DNA of 34,182 nucleotides from Bacteroidota bacterium (GTDB lineage Bacteria; Bacteroidota; Bacteroidia; B-17B0; Aurantibacillaceae): NCBI GenBank assembly GCA_013816615.1, contig JACDED010000036.1:1-34182 (forward strand), read 5' to 3'. The translations under genes were made by a program, and so were the position numbers. Positions 1,350-28,776 of the stretch are shown here, in pieces (position 1 is the first letter of the stretch; every line of letters starts with the position of its first letter). The notes beneath the pieces were generated by a model, which saw only the letters and a list, made by a program, of their open reading frames with translations, searched no databases and was not told where the DNA came from.

Positions 1350-1423
1350 GGTTATGTAGCTCAACTGGATAGAGCACCTCACTACGGATGAGGAGGTTTG
1401 GGGTTCGACTCCCTACATGACCA
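1350..1423 (+). tRNA. tRNA-Arg (anticodon ACG)
   Basis: A complete cloverleaf can be drawn. The acceptor stem GGTTATG (1350-1356) pairs with CATGACC (1416-1422) with one G-T pair, and the discriminator is A1423. The D arm is GCTC/GAGC. The anticodon stem CCTCA (1377-1381) pairs with TGAGG (1389-1393) around the loop CTACGGA, which places the anticodon ACG at 1384-1386. The T stem TGGGG/CCCTA encloses TTCGACT. The 3' CCA is not encoded (bases after the discriminator are CTT). ACG is the usual wobble-modified (inosine) arginine tRNA in bacteria. Confidence 0.95.
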
Positions 1424-8099: not shown

Positions 8100-9674
8100 A
8101 TGAGCTTAATCATTTCAAAGGAAGAGTTTGCTTTTCAAAACGAAGAAAAAGAGAAACGCGCAGCTGAATTGATTGCTGCCAATAAAGAACTTGCCTTTCA
8201 AAACAAAGAAAAGGAAAAACGAGCGGCGGAATTGAGCATTGCAAATAAAGAACTGGCTTTTCAAAACGATCAAAAAGAAAAACGAGCCGAAGAACTTATT
8301 GTTGCTAATAAAGAATTAGCGCATCAAAATGAGGTAAAGGAAAAACGTGCCGCTGAATTAATCATTGCCAACAAAGAACTGGCTTTTCAAAACCAGGAGA
8401 AAGAAAAGCGCGCCGCTGAATTAAGCATCGCAAATATTGAACTGGCCTATCAAAATGAGGAAAAAGAAAAACGTGCAGAAGAATTAGTGATCGCTAATAA
8501 AGAACTTGCTTTTCAAAATAACGAAAAGGAAAAGAGAGCAGAAGAACTCGCAGTAGCAAATAAAGAACTTGCCTTTCAGAATAAAGAAAAAGAAAAGCGC
8601 GCAGAAGAGCTTGTGATTGCAAACAGGGAGCTAGCTTTCCAAAACAAAGAAAAAGAAAAGCGCGCAGCTGAGTTAGGTGTTGCAAATAAAGAGCTGGCAT
8701 TTCAAAATAAAGAAAAAGAAAAACGGGCTGAAGAACTGGCGATCGCCAATAAAGAATTGGCTTACCAAAATGAAGTAAAGGAAAAGAGGGCAGCTGAACT
8801 CATAATTGCTAATGAAGAACTTGCTATTCAAAACCATGAGAAAGAAAAACGGGCGGCGGAATTAAGCATTGCGAACATAGAGCTGGCATATCAAAACGAG
8901 GAAAAAGAAGACCGTGCAGCAGAGTTGATTGTTGCCAACAAGGAACTTGTTTTTCAAAACGAAGAAAAAGAAAAACGAGCCACAGAGTTAATTATCGCAA
9001 ACAAGGGGCTGGAGCAGTTTTCTTACATTACTTCTCACGATCTGCAGGAACCCCTTCGCACCGTTTCTAATTACCTGCAGGTTTTTGAAGAAGATTATAT
9101 AGAAATATTAGACGATAATGCGCGTAAATACCTTAATTCTATAAATAATGCCACAAAAAGAATGAGCACGCTTATTAAATCGCTCCTGGATTTTTCAAGA
9201 CTTGGTCATAATACAAAACTTACGTTTGTAGATATTAACCATTTAGTTGAGGTTGTTATTCAAGATCTTGAAACCATGATAAAAAGCTCAGAGGCGAACA
9301 TTGAAGTTTTTGAGATGCCACAATTAAATGTATACGAGGTCGAGATCCGACAGGTATTCCAAAATCTGATTACCAATGCTATAAAATTCCGAAAAGAAAA
9401 TATCCAACCCTTAATAAAAATTCGTTCAGAAAAAATAAACGATGAGTGGCAATTCTCTGTAAGTGACAATGGCATTGGAATCGACCCGGTTTATTTTGAA
9501 AGGATATTTGATATTTTTCAGCGCCTGCATACCAATGAAAAATATGAAGGCAATGGAATAGGACTTTCTAACTGTAAAAAAATAATTGAATCTCACCAGG
9601 GAAGAATTTGGGTGGAAGAAAACCCAACGGAGGGCACAACCTTTTATTTCACAATACCTAATTTAACATTATGA
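8100..9674 (+). CDS. Soluble histidine kinase with fourteen 21-residue coiled-coil repeats
   Basis: This is a 524-aa kinase with no membrane segment. After a 15-residue leader, residues 16-309 are 13 complete units and one final unit, each exactly 21 residues (EKEKRAAEL, a variable pair, then ANKELAFQN and one more). The final unit ([10 protein letters not shown]) merges into the DHp helix with the phospho-acceptor H313 ([11 protein letters not shown]). The HATPase follows: N426 in the N box, [27 protein letters not shown] and [10 protein letters not shown]. Since 21 residues are three heptads, a continuous coiled coil is predicted. The stop overlaps the ATG of the following response regulator (ATGA), so the two form a cognate pair. 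It is paralogous to the kinase at 1762. The sensed signal is not evident. Confidence 0.92.
8145..9026 (+). repeat. 63-bp coding tandem repeat with two 7-unit blocks
   Basis: Fourteen in-frame 63-bp units have no indels. Unit types recur with a period of seven (units 3-6 resemble 10-13). Units 5 (8397-8459) and 12 (8838-8900) encode identical peptides and differ at 11 positions, all synonymous third bases. This points to an old duplication of a 441-bp block, with protein sequence kept and DNA identity lost. Confidence 0.85.
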
Positions 9675-10081
9675 GCAAAACACTAAATTGCATTATGCTG
9701 GTTGATGATGATGCTGATGATAATTTTATCCACGAAAGGGTAATTAAAAGAAGCAAAGCGGCTGAACATGTTATAGCAAAGCAAACAGGCATAGAGGCCA
9801 TAGAATATTTAAAATCGAACCGCGAGAATGATCGCCAACCTCCTGATCTTATTTTTTTGGATATTAACATGCCGGGCATGAATGGATGGGAGTTTCTTGG
9901 TGAGTATGAAAAACTGGATGAAAAATCTAAAAGCAAAGCTATTATAGTTATGCTTACAACATCAGAAAATCCCGATGATAAGATGAAAGCAAAAGCCATA
10001 AATTTAGCTTCAGACTTTAAAACAAAACCACTCACTCAGGAAATGTTGGAAGAAATAATTGAAAAATATTTTAAAGAGTAG
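9671..10081 (+). CDS. Single-domain response regulator (Rcp1-like)
   Basis: This 136-aa protein is one receiver domain with no output domain. The acidic pocket is D12-D14 ([10 protein letters not shown]), the phospho-acceptor is D64 ([13 protein letters not shown]), the switch Thr is in VMLTTSE, and the conserved Lys is K119 (FKTKPLT). The ADDN and extended beta4 style are those of the phytochrome-partner Rcp1 group common beside soluble kinases. The ATG overlaps the stop of the upstream kinase by four bases. It should accept phosphate from that kinase and pass it on or bind a target protein. Confidence 0.92.
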
Positions 10082-10097
10082 TATGCTACTCTTTAAA
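10070..10097. terminator. Perfect palindrome across both convergent stop codons
   Basis: TTTAAAGAGTAG (10070-10081) and CTACTCTTTAAA (10086-10097) form a perfect 12-bp stem with loop TATG. The stem contains the TAG of the response regulator and the TAA of the convergent CheB-CheR kinase. A T-rich stretch follows on the minus strand. A bidirectional terminator is the simplest reading. Confidence 0.6.
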
Positions 10098-13000
10098 TTG
10101 TAGGAAGATAAATATCAAAAGTAACTCCTTTGTTTAACTTACCAGTGGCAGTAATAATTCCTTTATGATTTTCAACAATCCGTTTGCAAATCGCCAGCCC
10201 CATTCCGGTGCCTTTATATACATCCTGTCCATGTAGTCTTTGAAATACTTCAAAAACACGCCCCTCATACTTTGGGTCGAATCCTATGCCATTATCGCAA
10301 ACTGATATATGGCAGTAATTTACTTCAGGTAAAAGTTCTCCTAAGTTCAATAGTCTTCCTGGTGTTACATCGCATTTTATAGTTATTCGCGGAAATCTTT
10401 TGGCATGAGTAAATTTTAAAGCATTACCAATAAGATTGTGAATGATCTGTCGAAATTGAAAAACTATTACTTTAGTATCGCAGTCACCATCAACAGTGAT
10501 TACTGCTTTTTTATCTTTGATGGATTCTTTAAAATCATCAGCAACTTCTTTTACAATTTTGCTTAGATTGATCTTCTCATACGCATTTTTTCCTTCTTTA
10601 ATTCCGGCATATATTAGTAAATCGTCAATCAATGCCTGCATCCTTGTTGCTGTTTTTTGAACTTTATTAAGCTCTTCCTTACCGGCAGCTGATAAATTTT
10701 TATTTTCGGTTTCAAGCAAGGAGGCCGTGAATATTCTGATCTTTCGTAGAGGTTCCTGTAAATCGTGACTGGATATAAAACTGAATGTTTCCAATTCCTT
10801 ATTTGCCTTCACAAGAAATGCATTTTTTTCATTAACGGTTCTATAGCTTTCTTCTAAAGCCTTTGTTCTTTCGCTAATAACATCTTCGAGTTCTTTATTA
10901 CCTGACTTATGTTTTTCGATGATCAATGTAGTATCCGTGAAAGTCAACAAAATAAGTTGCTCGTTCTGGGTCTTTTGCGTGATTTGTCGGGCATTGAGTA
11001 ACATCGTTTTTATTCCGGTTTCAGGAAAAGTATAAGTTATTTCATGTTCATAGAAATGTGTGTTTTTGTGAATAATATTTTCTAAAAGCACATGTAGAGC
11101 GGGAATATCCCACTGGTGATTTGATAGTTCGTATAATAGCACACCTTCCGTGCCTGTTTGCATTAAATGAAATTTTTTATAAAAGGCTTTGTTGGCGGAT
11201 TTTACACGAAGGTGTTTATCAAGAATAAGCATTGGTTCGTGCATCGTTTCAGCAACTGCCTCCGAAAAATTGTAGGATTCGGCCAGTTGCTCATTACGCA
11301 TTTGTAACTCCTGGTTGGTAGTAAGAAGCTCTTCGTTGGCTGCTTGAATTTCTTCTTTGGATGTTTCCAACTCTTCATTCAGAGTTTGAAACTCCTCGCT
11401 TGCAGAAATTATTTCTTCATTAGCAGCCTGTAAATCTTCATAAGCTCTGTCTTGCGATTCGATCACAGTGATCATTTCCGCACTTGCCTTATGTAATTCC
11501 TCTATTTGTTTTTTAATCCGGCTATCTTTCTGGAGTGAGTTTTTGCCCCCAGGGGTTTTTCCACTGAATTGTTCAATCTCCTGCATTGTAAATACAATCA
11601 GGTAAAGAGGCTCGCCCCATTCAATGGTGAGGGGACGTACTTCAAGAGACATTACTTGTGAAAATTTATTTTTTACATCTATATTGAGTTGAATTCCTGA
11701 CTTGAATACCGGGCTATTTGTTTTTATGACTTCATGTATGGCGTTACGAAGTTCAAAAACAAACTCCGGGCGGGTCATTTTTAAAATATTAAGACTTGCA
11801 TTACCCGAAGGGTGAGAAAGATATAAAGATGTTAAGCCTCTGAATTTAATTATCTCCATGCTTTTATTTATGATCACGCATGCGGGCATATAAAGCGAGA
11901 GAAGTGTAGAGTCGATGCTGCGATCAAGCTCAGAAGAAGTAGTTATGGTTTCTTTTCGGGAAAGTGGTTTAATAGTTTTTTCGGCAACCGGCTTTCCGGA
12001 TTGTCGCAAAAAAACTTCCGGTACATTGCGTAATCCGGTACCTTTTTTTCGGCAGTAGAGTTTGAATGTATCGCTTACCTGGTTGAAGAACTGAGAGGCT
12101 GTTCCCACCGTTTCCGATTTGCCCAGCAGTAAGCAGCCACCTTCATTCAACGCAAAATTCATTGTAGCCAGCGTTTTTTTCTGCGCCTCGCCATCAAAAT
12201 AAATAAGTAAATTTCTGCAACTAATAAAATCAATACGTGAAAAGGGAGGGTCGCGTAAAATATTATGAGGGGCAAACACACACATATCACGAAGTTCTTT
12301 CACTATCCTGTAATTGGTGCCTACCTTTGTAAAAAAACGTTCTATCCTGCGCTTACCAACATTGCCCAGGTTTTTTTCAGAATACTCTCCGACCCTTGCA
12401 TCCGCAATGGCTTGATCACTTAGGTCGGTAGCAAAAATTCGAACGGAAATTTTCTTTATTTTGTTAGTCTGTAATTCAGTTATTAGCATTGCGAGCGAAT
12501 AGGCCTCTTCGCCCGTTGAACAGGCCGGTACCCAGATCTTGATAGTATCGTTTTGAGTTTTACTTTTTAATAACGTTGGAAGAAAAGTAGTTTTCAAATA
12601 CTGGAAAGTTTCCGGGTCTCTGAAAAAACTAGTGATATTAATTAATAGGTCTTTATAAAGTAAATCAATTTCTTTATTTTTTTTTAAAATGTATTTACCA
12701 TATTCCTTAATTAATTTTACGCCGCTCTGAAGCATCCTATGATTGATTCGCCTCTTGATCGTTGCCAGTTTATAAAGACTAAAATCTACATTAATTTTTT
12801 TATGTAAAGTTTCAATTATAATCTTCAGATCCGGATCATTGTCCTTAATACTGGTTTCTTTTTCTTCACTAAAGACTTCCTTCACTTTAGATTTAACGGC
12901 AAGTTTCGCAATGCCACTTTTGCCAAGCAAGTTTAGCTTAAGGGCAATTTTTTTTGGCGATAATACAAAATCTACTACGCCGGATGCAATTGCTGAGTGG

Positions 13001-13554
13001 GGCATGCTTGTGGCTTGGGCAGTATCGTCTTGGGCAAAAGTAATACCTCCTGCATTTTTAATAGCTTTTAATCCGCTTGTGCCATCATACGCATTTCCGG
13101 AAAGTATTACTCCAACAACATTTTCTTTATGCGTTTCTGCCAGAGATAAAAAAAGTACATCGATGGAAATAGCAATGCCACCTTTTGAACGGGGAATAAC
13201 TTTTATATGTCCGTTAGTAACCTCAATTCCTCTATCGTTAGGAATAACATAAACATTATTTGGAATAATATGTTGCATGTTTTCAATTTCCTGCACTTTC
13301 ATAGCAGTAATTTTGGATAAAATAGGTGAGAGCATGCTTTTATGGTCAGGGCTAATATGCTGAACATAAATATAGGCCATGCCGGTTTTAGGTGACAGAT
13401 TTTTAAAAAATTCCAATGCTGCCTCTAATCCACCCGCTGAAGAACCTATCGCTACTACTGGAAAATCACTGACGTGTTTAGCAGTGGCCTTTTTAAAAGT
13501 TAACTCACTTGTCGCAATTTTTTTTCTTCCGCTTTTTATTTTTTTCTTCTGCAT
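10093..13554 (-). CDS. CheB-CheR-PAS-histidine kinase fusion
   Basis: This is a 1153-aa cytoplasmic protein. Residues 30-200 are a CheB methylesterase without a receiver, with the likely triad S39 (GSSAGG), H66 (QHISPDH) and D157 (GNAYDGTSG). Residues about 240-520 are CheR: an N-terminal helical part (RRINHRM), then the SAM-binding WVPACSTGEEAYSLAM and FISCRNLLIYF. A PAS-like region follows, then a Glu/Asn-rich coiled coil (about 700-770, AANEELLTTNQELQ), a second PAS, and a kinase with H930 ([10 protein letters not shown]), N1044, DNGIG at 1087 and GTGMGLAICKRI. It lies 17 bp after two response regulator genes. No chemoreceptor, CheA or CheW is in the window, so the methylation substrate may not be a classical receptor. 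Confidence 0.93.
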   Translation of the reverse strand: MQKKKIKSGRKKIATSELTFKKATAKHVSDFPVVAIGSSAGGLEAALEFFKNLSPKTGMAYIYVQHISPDHKSMLSPILSKITAMKVQEIENMQHIIPNNVYVIPNDRGIEVTNGHIKVIPRSKGGIAISIDVLFLSLAETHKENVVGVILSGNAYDGTSGLKAIKNAGGITFAQDDTAQATSMPHSAIASGVVDFVLSPKKIALKLNLLGKSGIAKLAVKSKVKEVFSEEKETSIKDNDPDLKIIIETLHKKINVDFSLYKLATIKRRINHRMLQSGVKLIKEYGKYILKKNKEIDLLYKDLLINITSFFRDPETFQYLKTTFLPTLLKSKTQNDTIKIWVPACSTGEEAYSLAMLITELQTNKIKKISVRIFATDLSDQAIADARVGEYSEKNLGNVGKRRIERFFTKVGTNYRIVKELRDMCVFAPHNILRDPPFSRIDFISCRNLLIYFDGEAQKKTLATMNFALNEGGCLLLGKSETVGTASQFFNQVSDTFKLYCRKKGTGLRNVPEVFLRQSGKPVAEKTIKPLSRKETITTSSELDRSIDSTLLSLYMPACVIINKSMEIIKFRGLTSLYLSHPSGNASLNILKMTRPEFVFELRNAIHEVIKTNSPVFKSGIQLNIDVKNKFSQVMSLEVRPLTIEWGEPLYLIVFTMQEIEQFSGKTPGGKNSLQKDSRIKKQIEELHKASAEMITVIESQDRAYEDLQAANEEIISASEEFQTLNEELETSKEEIQAANEELLTTNQELQMRNEQLAESYNFSEAVAETMHEPMLILDKHLRVKSANKAFYKKFHLMQTGTEGVLLYELSNHQWDIPALHVLLENIIHKNTHFYEHEITYTFPETGIKTMLLNARQITQKTQNEQLILLTFTDTTLIIEKHKSGNKELEDVISERTKALEESYRTVNEKNAFLVKANKELETFSFISSHDLQEPLRKIRIFTASLLETENKNLSAAGKEELNKVQKTATRMQALIDDLLIYAGIKEGKNAYEKINLSKIVKEVADDFKESIKDKKAVITVDGDCDTKVIVFQFRQIIHNLIGNALKFTHAKRFPRITIKCDVTPGRLLNLGELLPEVNYCHISVCDNGIGFDPKYEGRVFEVFQRLHGQDVYKGTGMGLAICKRIVENHKGIITATGKLNKGVTFDIYLPTI

Positions 13555-13571: not shown

Positions 13572-14039
13572 CTATTGTAAGCTGAGAATAAACGTATCTT
13601 TTGTTTTCTTATTCAAATTATTATTCGCAAACTTTTCTAAAATAAGTTCAAGGTGTTTGATCAGATCATTAAATTCACCTTTTTTTACATAATGCTGCGC
13701 GCCTTTCTCATAACACTCTTGTGTCATTGATTTATTGAGAGATGTTGAATATATAATAACAGGAAATTCATTTGTGCTTTCGTTTGCTTTTGTTTCTATC
13801 AGGCACTCCAAACCATTTTTACGAGGCGTATTTAGATCGAGGAAAAGTATATCCGGAAAATAGAGCTGCTTTTTCTCAAAATGGTTCATTAGCATTTCAC
13901 CATCTTCTACAACTTTTATTTTAGTGAGAAACGAAACGCTTTTTAACGTGCGGGAAAAGTAGAGATTGTCGTCCTTCTCATCATCAGCAAGCAGAATATT
14001 TATTCGTTTTGGTATTACCGTTGTAACTCTTTGCTTCAT
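13572..14039 (-). CDS. Single-domain response regulator
   Basis: This 155-aa receiver-only protein has an acidic pocket at D19-E21 (LLADDEKDD), phospho-acceptor D68 (ILFLDLNTPRKNG), a switch Ser/Thr in IIYSTSLN and a conserved Lys in YVKKGEF. The ADD-KDD and PRKNG style matches its neighbour at 14052, so the two are tandem duplicates. It lies 12 bp after that gene and 17 bp before the CheB-CheR kinase on the same strand, forming an operon. It is expected to be a phosphate acceptor or sink for that kinase. Confidence 0.92.
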   Translation of the reverse strand: MKQRVTTVIPKRINILLADDEKDDNLYFSRTLKSVSFLTKIKVVEDGEMLMNHFEKKQLYFPDILFLDLNTPRKNGLECLIETKANESTNEFPVIIYSTSLNKSMTQECYEKGAQHYVKKGEFNDLIKHLELILEKFANNNLNKKTKDTFILSLQ

Positions 14040-21669: not shown

Positions 21670-24552
21670 TTGATGAAAAATTACCATAAGCTTATAATTA
21701 TTTTTTTCTTTTTCGGCGCACGATTGTTTTCGCAGGAATGGGTATTTGTTTTTACAAGTACGATTGTTAAGGACGATAAAGGCATTGGAGGTGCGAGCAT
21801 TAAACTTTATAATGGTTCCACTTTAGTTAAAGAAACAACATCTGATGCTGGTGGTGATTTTAAATTAGAAATCCCACCAAACGGTAATTATTCAATCATC
21901 ATAAGTAAACCAAATCATGTCACAAAAAAAGTAGCGGTTTCTACTTTAGATGTTCCTGCTGATACAAAAAATAAATCCTTTGCTCTTAAGATAGAATCCT
22001 TTTCATTATTCGAACCGCTTCCCGGAATTGATTATTCAGCTTTAAATCAACCACTTTTAAATATCGCCTATAACGGATCAAAAAAATCATTTAGTGATAA
22101 TGCTGCCTATACCGATCAAATGCTTGGAGTTTTAGGGCAGATAAAGGAACAGGAAAAAGCATTGATGAGAAAATATGATGCTGCTGTTGCACTTGCAGAC
22201 GGTGCATTTACAAAACAAGATTGGACAACCGCAAAAACAAATTATCAATTAGCCTTAACATTGTTGCCCGATAAAAAATATCCAAAAGAGAGATTAGCAT
22301 TAATAGATAAAATAATTAAAGAAGAAGAAGAAGCATTAAAGAAAGCAGAAGCAGATAAACTTGCTACTGATAAAGCAGCAAAAGACAAAGCGGCAGCTGA
22401 TAAATTAGCAGCTGAAAAAGCAGCAGCTGATAAAGTAGCGGCAGACGCTGCGGCTAAGGCTAAAGCAGAAGCAGATGCCAAGTCAAAAGCCGATGCAGAA
22501 GCGGCAGCAAAGAAAGCATCTGAAGAAGCTGCTGCTAAAGCGAAGGCAGATAAAGAAGCTGCGGAAGCTGCAGCAAAAGCAAAAACTGAGAAAGAAGCTG
22601 CTGATAAAAAAGCAGCCGAAGAAGCTGCGGCAAAATTAAAAGCAGATAAAGAGGCGGCAGACAAAGTAGCAAAAGAAAAAGCAGAAGCGGATACCAAAGC
22701 AAAAGCTGATGCAGCAGCTGCGGCTAAGAAAGCTGCTGAAGAAGCAGCCGCAAAAGTAAAAGCAGAAAAAGAAGCTGCGGATGCTGCTGCAAAAGCGAAA
22801 GCAGAAAAAGAAGCTGCTGATAAAAAAACAGCGGAAGAGGCAGCCGCCAAAGCGAAAGCTGAGAAAGACGCTGCTGATAAAGCAGCAAAAGAAAAAGTAG
22901 CTCAAGAAGCTAAGGCAAAAGCCGAAGCAGAAGCTATTGCGAAAAAGTCAGCCGAAGAAGCTGCACTAAAAGCAAAAGCAGAAAAAGAAGCCGCAGATAG
23001 ATCGGCGAAAGAAAAAGCTGATGCGGAATTAGCTGCAAAGAAAGCAGCTGATGAAGCGGCATTAAAAGCTAAAGCAGAAAAAGAAGCGGCTGATAAAGCT
23101 GAGAAAGAAAAAATAGCTGCAGAAGCAAAAGCTAAAGCAGAAAAAGATAACGCAGATAAAGCAGCAAAAGACAAAGCGGATGCAGAAGCTAAGGCGAAAG
23201 CAAATGCGGAAGCTCTCGCAAAAAAAGCAGCCGATGAAGCTGCACTAAAAGCAAAAGCAGAAAAAGAAGCGGCTGATAAAGCGGCCAAGGAAAAAGAAAA
23301 CGCTGATGCTGTTGCGAAAAAAACAGCGGATGAAGCTGCCGCAAAAGCTAAAGCAGAAAAAGAAGCAACAGAGTTTGCGGCAAGATCTAAAGCGGAAGCG
23401 GATAAAATTGCGAAAGAAAAAGTGGATGCTGAAGCAAAATTAAAAGCAGATAAAGAAGCAGCCGATAAATTAACAAAAGAAAAACAGAATGCAGATGCTG
23501 CAGCGAAAAAAGTTGCAGAAGAAGCTGCAGTCAAAGCAAAAGCCGAAAAGGAAGCAACCGAGCTTGCGGCAAAATCTAAAGTAGAAAAAGAAGCTGCCGA
23601 TAAAAAAGCTGCAGAAGCAACGGCTGCAAAAGAAAAAGCAGATAAGAACGCCGCAGATATCGCAGCAAAAGCTAAAGCAGAAACAGATAAACTTGCTGCC
23701 GAAAAGGATGCCAAAGCAAAAGCTGAAGCGGATAAACTTGCGGCTGAAAAAGCAACTAAGGATAAAGAAGCCGCCGATAAAGCCGTTAAAGAAAAGGCAG
23801 CGGCTGATAAATTAGCAGCTGAAAAAGATGCCAAAGCAAAAGCGGATGCAGATAAATTGGCTGCTGAAAAAGCAGCTAAAGAGAAAGAAGCTGCCGATAA
23901 GACCGCTAAAGACAAAGTTGCGGCGGATAAAATAGCCGCAGAAAAAGCAGCAATAGAAAAAGATAAGGCTGACCAATTAGCTGCTGAAAAAGCTGCTGAA
24001 GATAAAGCGAAGCTTAAAGCACAAAAAGAAAAAGAAGCGGCAGATAAAGATAAAGTTGATCAGTTAGCTGCTGAAAAAGCCGCAGCCGATAAAGCAAAAT
24101 TAAAAGCGCAGAAAGAAAAAGAAGCTATTGAAAAAGATAAGGCGGAACAATTAGCCTTAGAAAAAGCTGCTGAGGATAAAGCAAAATTAAAAGCACAAAA
24201 AGAAAAAGAAGCTGCAGAAAAAGATAAAGCAGATCAACTGGCCAAAGAAAAAGAAAAGGCTGATAAAGAAGCTGCTGCAAAATTAGCAAGAGAAGAAGAA
24301 GGAAGAAAAGCTAAGGAAGCAGAAGAAACTGAAAAAACAGAAGGAAAAAAAGGCAATGCAAAACATTCAATTGCCAACCAGATAGGAAAAGATTTTTATA
24401 AAGAAACTATTGTAAAAGCCGACGGTTATTTTAAAATGAAACGCTACGAAGAAGCAAAAAATGCCTACCAGGAAGCGCTTGACATGAGACCGGACGATGC
24501 TTATGCAAAAGGTAAATTAGACCAGATCTCAAAATTAATAGTGCCGAAATAA
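21670..24552 (+). CDS. Exported protein with a very long Ala/Lys/Glu helix between TPR-like ends
   Basis: This is a 960-aa protein with a signal peptide (KLIIIFFFFGARLFSQ). Residues about 25-105 are a carboxypeptidase-regulatory-like beta domain (KDDKGIGGASIKLYNG, then NGNYSIIISKPNHVTKK). A TPR-like pair (about 165-215, ADGAFTKQDWTTAKTNYQLAL) follows. Residues about 220-895 are almost only Ala, Lys, Glu and Asp, with no Pro or Gly until the end. Near the C-end of this part a 29-residue unit (DKAKLKAQKEKEA core) occurs three times. A final TPR (YFKMKRYEEAKNAYQEALDMRP) closes the protein. A single alpha-helix or coiled coil of the order of 100 nm is predicted. The TolA-like composition suggests a periplasmic or surface-spanning rod. 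The partner is unknown. Long antisense frames here are composition artefacts. Confidence 0.85.
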   Translation: MMKNYHKLIIIFFFFGARLFSQEWVFVFTSTIVKDDKGIGGASIKLYNGSTLVKETTSDAGGDFKLEIPPNGNYSIIISKPNHVTKKVAVSTLDVPADTKNKSFALKIESFSLFEPLPGIDYSALNQPLLNIAYNGSKKSFSDNAAYTDQMLGVLGQIKEQEKALMRKYDAAVALADGAFTKQDWTTAKTNYQLALTLLPDKKYPKERLALIDKIIKEEEEALKKAEADKLATDKAAKDKAAADKLAAEKAAADKVAADAAAKAKAEADAKSKADAEAAAKKASEEAAAKAKADKEAAEAAAKAKTEKEAADKKAAEEAAAKLKADKEAADKVAKEKAEADTKAKADAAAAAKKAAEEAAAKVKAEKEAADAAAKAKAEKEAADKKTAEEAAAKAKAEKDAADKAAKEKVAQEAKAKAEAEAIAKKSAEEAALKAKAEKEAADRSAKEKADAELAAKKAADEAALKAKAEKEAADKAEKEKIAAEAKAKAEKDNADKAAKDKADAEAKAKANAEALAKKAADEAALKAKAEKEAADKAAKEKENADAVAKKTADEAAAKAKAEKEATEFAARSKAEADKIAKEKVDAEAKLKADKEAADKLTKEKQNADAAAKKVAEEAAVKAKAEKEATELAAKSKVEKEAADKKAAEATAAKEKADKNAADIAAKAKAETDKLAAEKDAKAKAEADKLAAEKATKDKEAADKAVKEKAAADKLAAEKDAKAKADADKLAAEKAAKEKEAADKTAKDKVAADKIAAEKAAIEKDKADQLAAEKAAEDKAKLKAQKEKEAADKDKVDQLAAEKAAADKAKLKAQKEKEAIEKDKAEQLALEKAAEDKAKLKAQKEKEAAEKDKADQLAKEKEKADKEAAAKLAREEEGRKAKEAEETEKTEGKKGNAKHSIANQIGKDFYKETIVKADGYFKMKRYEEAKNAYQEALDMRPDDAYAKGKLDQISKLIVPK

Positions 24553-28563: not shown

Positions 28564-28668
28564 TTAAATTATTAAAGCATAAAGTTACCAAGACAAATTT
28601 AAACTGGCTTAATTAAATTTTTATTTAGCGTTTTTTAATTTTTTTCTTCCCTAAATTAATTTTTATAC

Positions 28669-28776
28669 CGTGCGTTAGCGATTGCAATGAAAATCCTTTT
28701 TGAGCGTCGACCTGCCAAAAGGCAGAGTTGCGAACAAAAAGATTGAAGTGGAAAGCGCGGGCCGAAGGCAACGCCC
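28669..28776. repeat. Structured intergenic repeat upstream of the cyanophycin cluster
   Basis: This G+C-richer block in an AT-rich gap contains the hairpin CTGCC-AAAA-GGCAG (28712-28725). Outside it lie ATCCTTTTTG and CAAAAAGATT, which pair imperfectly around that hairpin. GATTGCAATGAAAATC and GATTGAAGTGGAAAGC are direct imperfect repeats. It ends in GGGCCGAAGGCAACGCCC. Its style is that of interspersed elements I recall from Bacteroidota genomes. It has no coding frame. Confidence 0.6.

Follow-up and report, generated by a model that had tools for sequence, protein, structure and literature searches.

A histidine kinase with a repeat array

This locus raises the question of what an array of fourteen 21-residue units does in a histidine kinase in which no sensor domain is found, and how such an array keeps its register with the helix that it enters. 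We call the window the whole stretch of DNA analysed, 34,182 nucleotides in length. Its ORF at 8100-9674 (+) encodes a protein of 524 amino acids, which consists of seven residues, 14 consecutive units (residues 8-301; 8121-9002, +), a DHp/HisKA region continuous with the array (9003-9209, +; Pfam HisKA at residues 305-370, E=6.9e-13) and a HATPase_c catalytic domain (9339-9662, +; residues 414-521, E=3.9e-28). Both kinase domains lie above the Pfam cut-offs, and the phospho-acceptor His313 (codon 9036-9038) is invariant in an alignment of 34 sequences, as are the Asn, Asp and Gly positions of the kinase. With a HisKA domain bearing the phospho-His and a HATPase_c domain, the protein is a HisKA-type histidine kinase. 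It is not a canonical sensor kinase with a sensor domain of its own, since Pfam matched no sensor domain or family in either of the two array kinases of the window (8100 and 1762), as the original prediction, made from the DNA letters, had held.

The array was delimited by a unit split, identity matrices, Tandem Repeats Finder (TRF) and a synonymous-site test. Its units share a 21-letter consensus and are equal in length, and TRF reports it at 8130-9001 with period 63 (13.8 copies, 0% indels, score 596) as well as at 8130-8977 with period 126 (1% indels, score 682). The repeats had been described as exact, which is true of their length but not of their letters, the identity between units being 66-95% for the protein and 63-82% for the DNA. 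The bounds first proposed for the array, 8145-9036, are slightly shifted, as they start inside the first unit and end on the first base of the His313 codon. The constant unit length and the merging of the last unit into the phospho-acceptor helix were both borne out: the last unit runs in register into HisKA/DHp, and its Arg293 lies 20 residues before His313.

A paralogous sensor-less histidine kinase of 404 amino acids is encoded at 1762-2976 (+; ORF and Pfam). Seven in-phase units can be counted in it by eye (residues 39-185; 1876-2316, +), followed by HisKA and HATPase_c, which agrees with the number proposed earlier, but the last two are degenerate and a stricter profile accepts four complete units; TRF places this array at 1897-2114. 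In an AlphaFold monomer model of the paralog (mean pLDDT 73.2, pTM 0.48), a single helix spans residues 3-219, including the array, and continues through the H-box, and its output part has matches among the histidine kinases of the PDB (8f71, E=1.1e-17). The monomer model of the 14-unit kinase (mean pLDDT 73.0, pTM 0.40) contains helices at 2-166 and 170-336. The break at 167-169, with pLDDT below 50 around it, falls in units resembling the others. The continuous helix is thus predicted for the paralog, but is interrupted by a low-confidence break in the longer protein.

The repeats of both window proteins partially match the SLA1-like PH domain (PH_SLA1, PF24081) at 24.0 and 19.2 bits, below the cut-off of 27, and their models are helical across the repeats, so that neither the label nor the fold was retained. 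Matches to PF24081 above the cut-off (27.5-55.1 bits) occur on five other arrays (L022, L062, L118, L120 and L125), and automatic annotation may label these coils as a PH domain.

The stop codon of the window kinase is overlapped by 4 bases by the gene for a single-domain response regulator (9671-10081, +; Response_reg, E=3.1e-15 by Pfam). There are 93 array ORFs with both an H-box and 500 bases of room, and in 34 of them a receiver-like ORF, recognised by pattern, follows within 250 bases; 23 further array ORFs, with no room downstream, stand outside the 93. The window kinase is also adjoined by a CheB-CheR-histidine kinase fusion with weak PAS matches (10093-13554, -), beside which a response regulator lies at 13572-14039. 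Elsewhere in the window, a tRNA gene listed as 1350-1423 (+) is located within the 5′ part of the ORF at 478-1482, on the strand opposite to it, and the true start of this tetrahydrodipicolinate succinyltransferase-like gene is probably further downstream. Long overlapping tandem repeats with periods of 15 to 216 occupy 22342-24253, within the ORF at 21670-24552; their consensus units are Ala/Lys/Glu-rich, and there are long open frames on the opposite strand.

At the gathering threshold, Rfam gave two matches in the window, neither within the array; a Flavo-1 RNA (RF01705, 46.3 bits) is located at 28661-28766 (+). An RNA-level function of the repeat DNA was rejected, as there is no Rfam match in the array and its synonymous divergence, given below, argues against a constraint on DNA or RNA. 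A mobile or phage origin of the array was likewise rejected, since it has no match in the phage collection. The plasmid collection gave one weak match (25.9% identity, a ParA-family protein), and four viral_contigs loci were counted among the arrays.

Heptad register of the units

The conservation profile of the unit, built from 117 distinct ORFs with 883 distinct units, has 76.8% of its non-constant power at 21/6 = 3.5 residues, a value that was reached in 0 of 200,000 permutations; hydrophobicity has only 4.1% of its power at this period. The heptad frame, set by the likeness of KRAAEL in the unit to the S-helix ERT segment, gives three heptads per unit, as had been proposed, in register to the DHp helix and with a = Leu3/Lys10/Leu17 and d = Gln6/Arg13/Ala20. 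By conservation (a, d, e, g against b, c, f), it is the best of the seven frames, at 1.35 bits with the runner-up at 1.18, although another frame scores better by the hydrophobicity of a + d (0.91 vs 0.69). Mean information content falls from a (4.11), d (3.97), g (3.95) and e (3.52) to c (3.23), b (2.38) and f (1.99), which is the order expected if the unit forms a two-stranded coil. Since the periodic conservation is best in the a/d/e/g frame, the conserved face reads as the face of a coiled coil, yet with polar core layers in every unit. Of the six layers of each unit, three are formed by polar or charged residues (Gln, Lys, Arg), one polar heptad being flanked by two more apolar ones, and this, together with the weak hydrophobic signal, leaves the rigidity claimed for the extension unproven. 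In two of three heptads, position c is occupied by a conserved hydrophobic residue (Phe5, Ile19), beside a mostly hydrophobic b (4, 18), a stripe that a plain two-stranded coil leaves exposed. The consensus holds neither Pro nor Gly.

The distance from the array to the kinase was also measured. In 56 of the 124 array proteins with an H-box, the phospho-His follows position 13 of the last unit at a distance of exactly 20 residues, and this position is Arg in 53 of the 56. In 17 array proteins whose array ends further upstream (distance 52), an S-helix-type signature stands 20 residues before the His, with its Arg in the context ERT (13), DRT (3) or LRT (1); ERT occurs at the in-array position in one of the 56 distance-20 proteins. 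As the Arg of the last unit and the ERT-type Arg both lie 20 residues before the His, the last unit occupies the position of the S-helix core. The likeness of the unit to the normal pre-H-box segment, noted in the original prediction, is supported, this segment being where the S-helix signature lies in other array proteins. At array-to-His distances below 100 (n=104), one register modulo 7 is common to 74 proteins, and the other 30 are spread over three registers (19, 9 and 2); among these 30 are the 17 with a distance of 52 and 5 whose distance, at 16, is four residues less than 20. The remaining 20 of the 124 have distances of 164-299.

The available text of Anantharaman et al. 2006 (PMC1592074) describes the S-helix as a segment of about 40 residues, mostly five heptads, with an ERT signature, a polar heptad in the dimer interface and stronger conservation at g, a, d and e. 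Like the S-helix as described there, the array would be a helical coupling segment upstream of the DHp, which it adjoins at distance 20 in the 56 proteins above and elsewhere in the others; its unit has an Arg at d of a polar central heptad, and positions a, d, e and g exceed b, c and f in conservation. It differs from that description in its signature, the unit having KRA where the S-helix has ERT at c, d and e of the central heptad, with the Arg kept. It also differs in length and number, a three-heptad unit of 21 residues being repeated about 2 up to 25 times, over up to 533 residues.

We looked for insertions and deletions inside the arrays with a cyclic profile, which covered 166 distinct array ORFs, 163 arrays of at least two units and 38,497 residues; array size has a median of 11.5 and a maximum of 25.4 units. 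There were 29 internal register breaks, of which three have a net shift of zero (L130, L139 and L160), leaving 26 indels. Of these non-21 indels 24 are multiples of seven, a count that is not independent, since some ORFs are overlapping reads of one gene and several heptad indels resemble inherited copies of one event (L089, L091, L096 and L105 at the same place, L090 nearby). Nineteen are of size 7 and five of size 14, sizes being known modulo 21 only. The two non-heptad cases, L133 (net 4) and L201 (net 13), are kept as evidence against the rule, and L139, which was within the scan, is an unrelated NAEL repeat. In a separate list of 43 breaks, the 28 at array edges (within 4 residues of the array end), most of them at the exit into DHp, were left uncounted; real four-residue shifts at this exit occur in L050, L099 and L115.

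Homologs were compared as 26 mutual-best kinase pairs with cores 63-99% identical; a broader count covering 686 kinase pairs was discarded, since it mixed in gaps from outside the arrays. The count for the 26 pairs omits gaps at alignment ends and gaps outside the arrays, two of which have a length of 21 and lie at array edges. Within the arrays, 14 of 17 gaps are multiples of 21, two are of 49 and one is of 17, so that 16 of 17 are multiples of 7; the single exception (L129/L133) counts against the heptad rule. Six of the pairs have cores 92-99% identical: in four of them the arrays differ in length by 2, 3, 2 and 2 units, and in the other two there is no difference. The arrays of one pair whose cores are 99% identical are 42 residues apart in length. 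The proposal that length is set by gain and loss of units is thus supported by the homolog pairs, but change is not confined to whole units. Since non-21 indels occur and yet 24 of 26 are multiples of seven, the constraint on array length looks like the heptad, with 21 residues as the unit of copying. Whole-unit steps are weak evidence because recombination between 63-bp repeats yields them without selection; the heptad indels are hence the better indication of selection on register.

Selection and distribution

Adjacent units of the window array differ at synonymous sites with pS 0.839, which is the random-codon level (0.838 +/- 0.051 in 200 simulations), while pN is 0.137. No recent unit duplication is visible in the window array, and its saturated synonymous sites together with its conserved protein show that it is old and maintained by selection on the protein. 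For 97 arrays of five or more units, the median pS is 0.71 (lowest 0.40) and the median pN 0.107. A pair of near-identical units, differing at no more than 2 of 63 bases, was found in 24 of the 97, and some other arrays evidently changed more recently than the window array.

Of the six array genes in the source genome, the window contains two, and contigs C241, C172, C100 and C52 contain one each. With G000 included throughout, matches were found in 35 of 100 related genomes at E 1e-3 (26 of 100 at E 1e-10 or better), in 40 of 395 class-level genomes at E 1e-15 and in 16 of 296 phylum-level genomes at E 1e-10. When named genomes were scanned with the whole kinase, at least 559 relatives were found, the best 80 of which, all full-length matches, are by title from Bacteroidetes/Bacteroidota and Ignavibacteria. 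Some other array kinases carry PAS, GAF or REC, and in ten long array proteins that were scanned, the array is N-terminal, between PAS and DHp, before PAS or after REC; by this placement, the arrays sit where linkers sit. The distance from the PAS-end motif, which we take to be a DIT-like motif assigned by pattern, to the His is 76-425 residues in 13 cases, with registers modulo 7 of 5, 6 and 1 in 5, 6 and 2 of them; in this sample, L022 and L187 represent one gene, and another two pairs are closely related.

In ten array proteins, each from a different genome and one of them from the source genome, the chain stops after a DHp-like segment that contains the His and leaves no space for an ATPase (10 of 170 array ORFs). 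Classification by pattern had placed 25 of the 170 ORFs in the class 'DHp only', 16 of which have tails of 221-401 amino acids, sufficient to hold an ATPase domain missed by the pattern; L056, with a tail of 124 amino acids, stops early and was excluded. By tail length, eight are truly DHp-only (L012, L128, L142, L143, L160, L161, L162 and L164), and L130 and L183 were added from the class 'other'. The source-genome member is L012 (3174-3854 on C52). Their DHp-like segment carries the motif SHKVRQP or similar, and of five that were run against Pfam HisKA, L143 passes the cut-off and the other four match more weakly. Among their relatives, a PAS-like sequence replaces the array in L163, L165, L169 and L175, as judged by eye, and L170 (110 amino acids) stands alone. 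The DHp-only proteins may form a family whose members act in phosphotransfer or as dominant partners. In one array ORF of 170, from a genome other than the source (L125, 682-2304, -; 541 amino acids), the array is fused to an MCP (methyl-accepting chemotaxis) signalling domain (E=2.3e-37), and Pfam found no sensor domain in this protein.

The proposed stalk and its alternatives

The array is probably a long, continuous and most likely parallel dimeric coiled-coil stalk that arose by tandem amplification of an S-helix-like segment. Its structure is well supported from the sequence, and its function is inferred. The ancestral segment would be an S-helix-like helix of the kind that usually links a sensor with the DHp helix, and the Arg of the unit would correspond in position to that of the S-helix ERT signature. 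As a parallel dimer, the stalk may dimerise the kinase and hold the DHp helices in a defined register. It may also pass on, or set, a twist from its N-terminal end, and in the sensor-less proteins, the end of the stalk or a partner that binds the stalk may be the input. The gain or loss of units would alter the length of the stalk without altering its register, so that reach varies and the coupling to the kinase is kept. A dimeric stalk that holds register and transmits it into the DHp is the best-supported mechanism. It is supported by the 3.5-residue period of conservation, the dominant register to the His, the heptad and whole-unit indels, the purifying selection on the protein, the single helix modelled for the paralog and the linker-like placement of the arrays. 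The weak hydrophobic periodicity, the close runner-up frame, the hydrophobics at b and c, the several His registers, the three registers of the PAS-to-His lengths, the non-independence of the indel counts, the whole-unit steps that recombination alone would yield and the break in the model argue against it.

That break is what helical hairpins or a solenoid, in place of one long helix, would explain. However, the paralog is modelled as one helix, the break falls in ordinary units whose consensus is free of Pro and Gly, and the heptad indels and the single conserved face imply a continuous register, all of which makes this arrangement highly improbable. Two other explanations are compatible with a stalk. 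Array length may have no function of its own, the duplicated 63-bp unit being resized by recombination and any heptad-preserving length being tolerated. The differences of two or three whole units between kinases with 92-99% identical cores, as well as the near-identical unit pairs in about a quarter of the arrays, fit such neutral growth, which we nevertheless regard as doubtful. The protein of the units is kept while their synonymous sites diverge, and hence the units are under selection; this counters free decay of the array but not neutral variation in unit number.

Alternatively, the array could be an assembly device, in which a common face of the stalk associates the array proteins of one cell, either in mixed dimers or in bundles formed side by side. 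Through the common stalk, kinases would then meet both DHp-only phosphotransfer proteins and proteins of chemoreceptor type, with the hydrophobic stripe at b and c as a lateral contact. In favour of this, the interface positions of the six source-genome paralogs are 82-92% identical (a 0.92, g 0.88, e 0.84, d 0.82), compared with 27-49% at the outward positions (c 0.49, b 0.41, f 0.27) and 24-62% in the output cores, and DHp-only array proteins exist in the source genome and nine others, with an array-MCP protein in one other genome. But the same conservation follows if every homodimer needs the same geometry, the paralogs differ in number of complete units (4 to 14), and the DHp-only and MCP forms are few, so that we consider an assembly role unlikely. 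An extension of it, in which the array proteins of one cell share a coiled-coil face, co-assemble and use the unit number as a ruler, seems distinctly improbable to us. If it were true, unit number would place kinases, DHp-only proteins and chemoreceptor-type proteins along a shared cytoplasmic bundle, and the heptad register would keep every output coupled.

Returning to the dimeric stalk, poly-HAMP kinases and receptors likewise have tandem copies of a signal-coupling module that precede a kinase or MCP output. A HAMP module has two helices per chain, forming a four-helix bundle, whereas the unit of the array is predicted to be a single stretch of helix. A full-text literature search, by unit letters and for repeat arrays in histidine kinases, found no paper that treats such arrays in its title or the opening of its abstract, most subscription journals being outside its coverage. 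In the available text of PMC6798134 and PMC11164954, designed (YF1, DmF1) and natural coiled-coil linkers to the DHp show heptad effects. These PAS/LOV/phytochrome linkers run into the DHp, as the array does, and registers modulo 7 matter in their response; in contrast to the kinases that carry them, the window proteins have no sensor domain found by Pfam. The same text of PMC11164954 reports that the linkers of natural phytochrome kinases group, in length, to within about 10 residues of the parent receptors, for reasons that it calls unclear, and the PAS-to-His distances measured here span a wider range.

The arrays constitute a natural series of linkers of about 2 to 25 units, mostly keeping the heptad register, in kinases that are sometimes near-identical. 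This series makes it testable whether register alone matters or length too, and whether the stalk is an input of the kinase. It bears on the transmission of a signal from a helix into the DHp bundle and on why natural linkers usually vary little in length.
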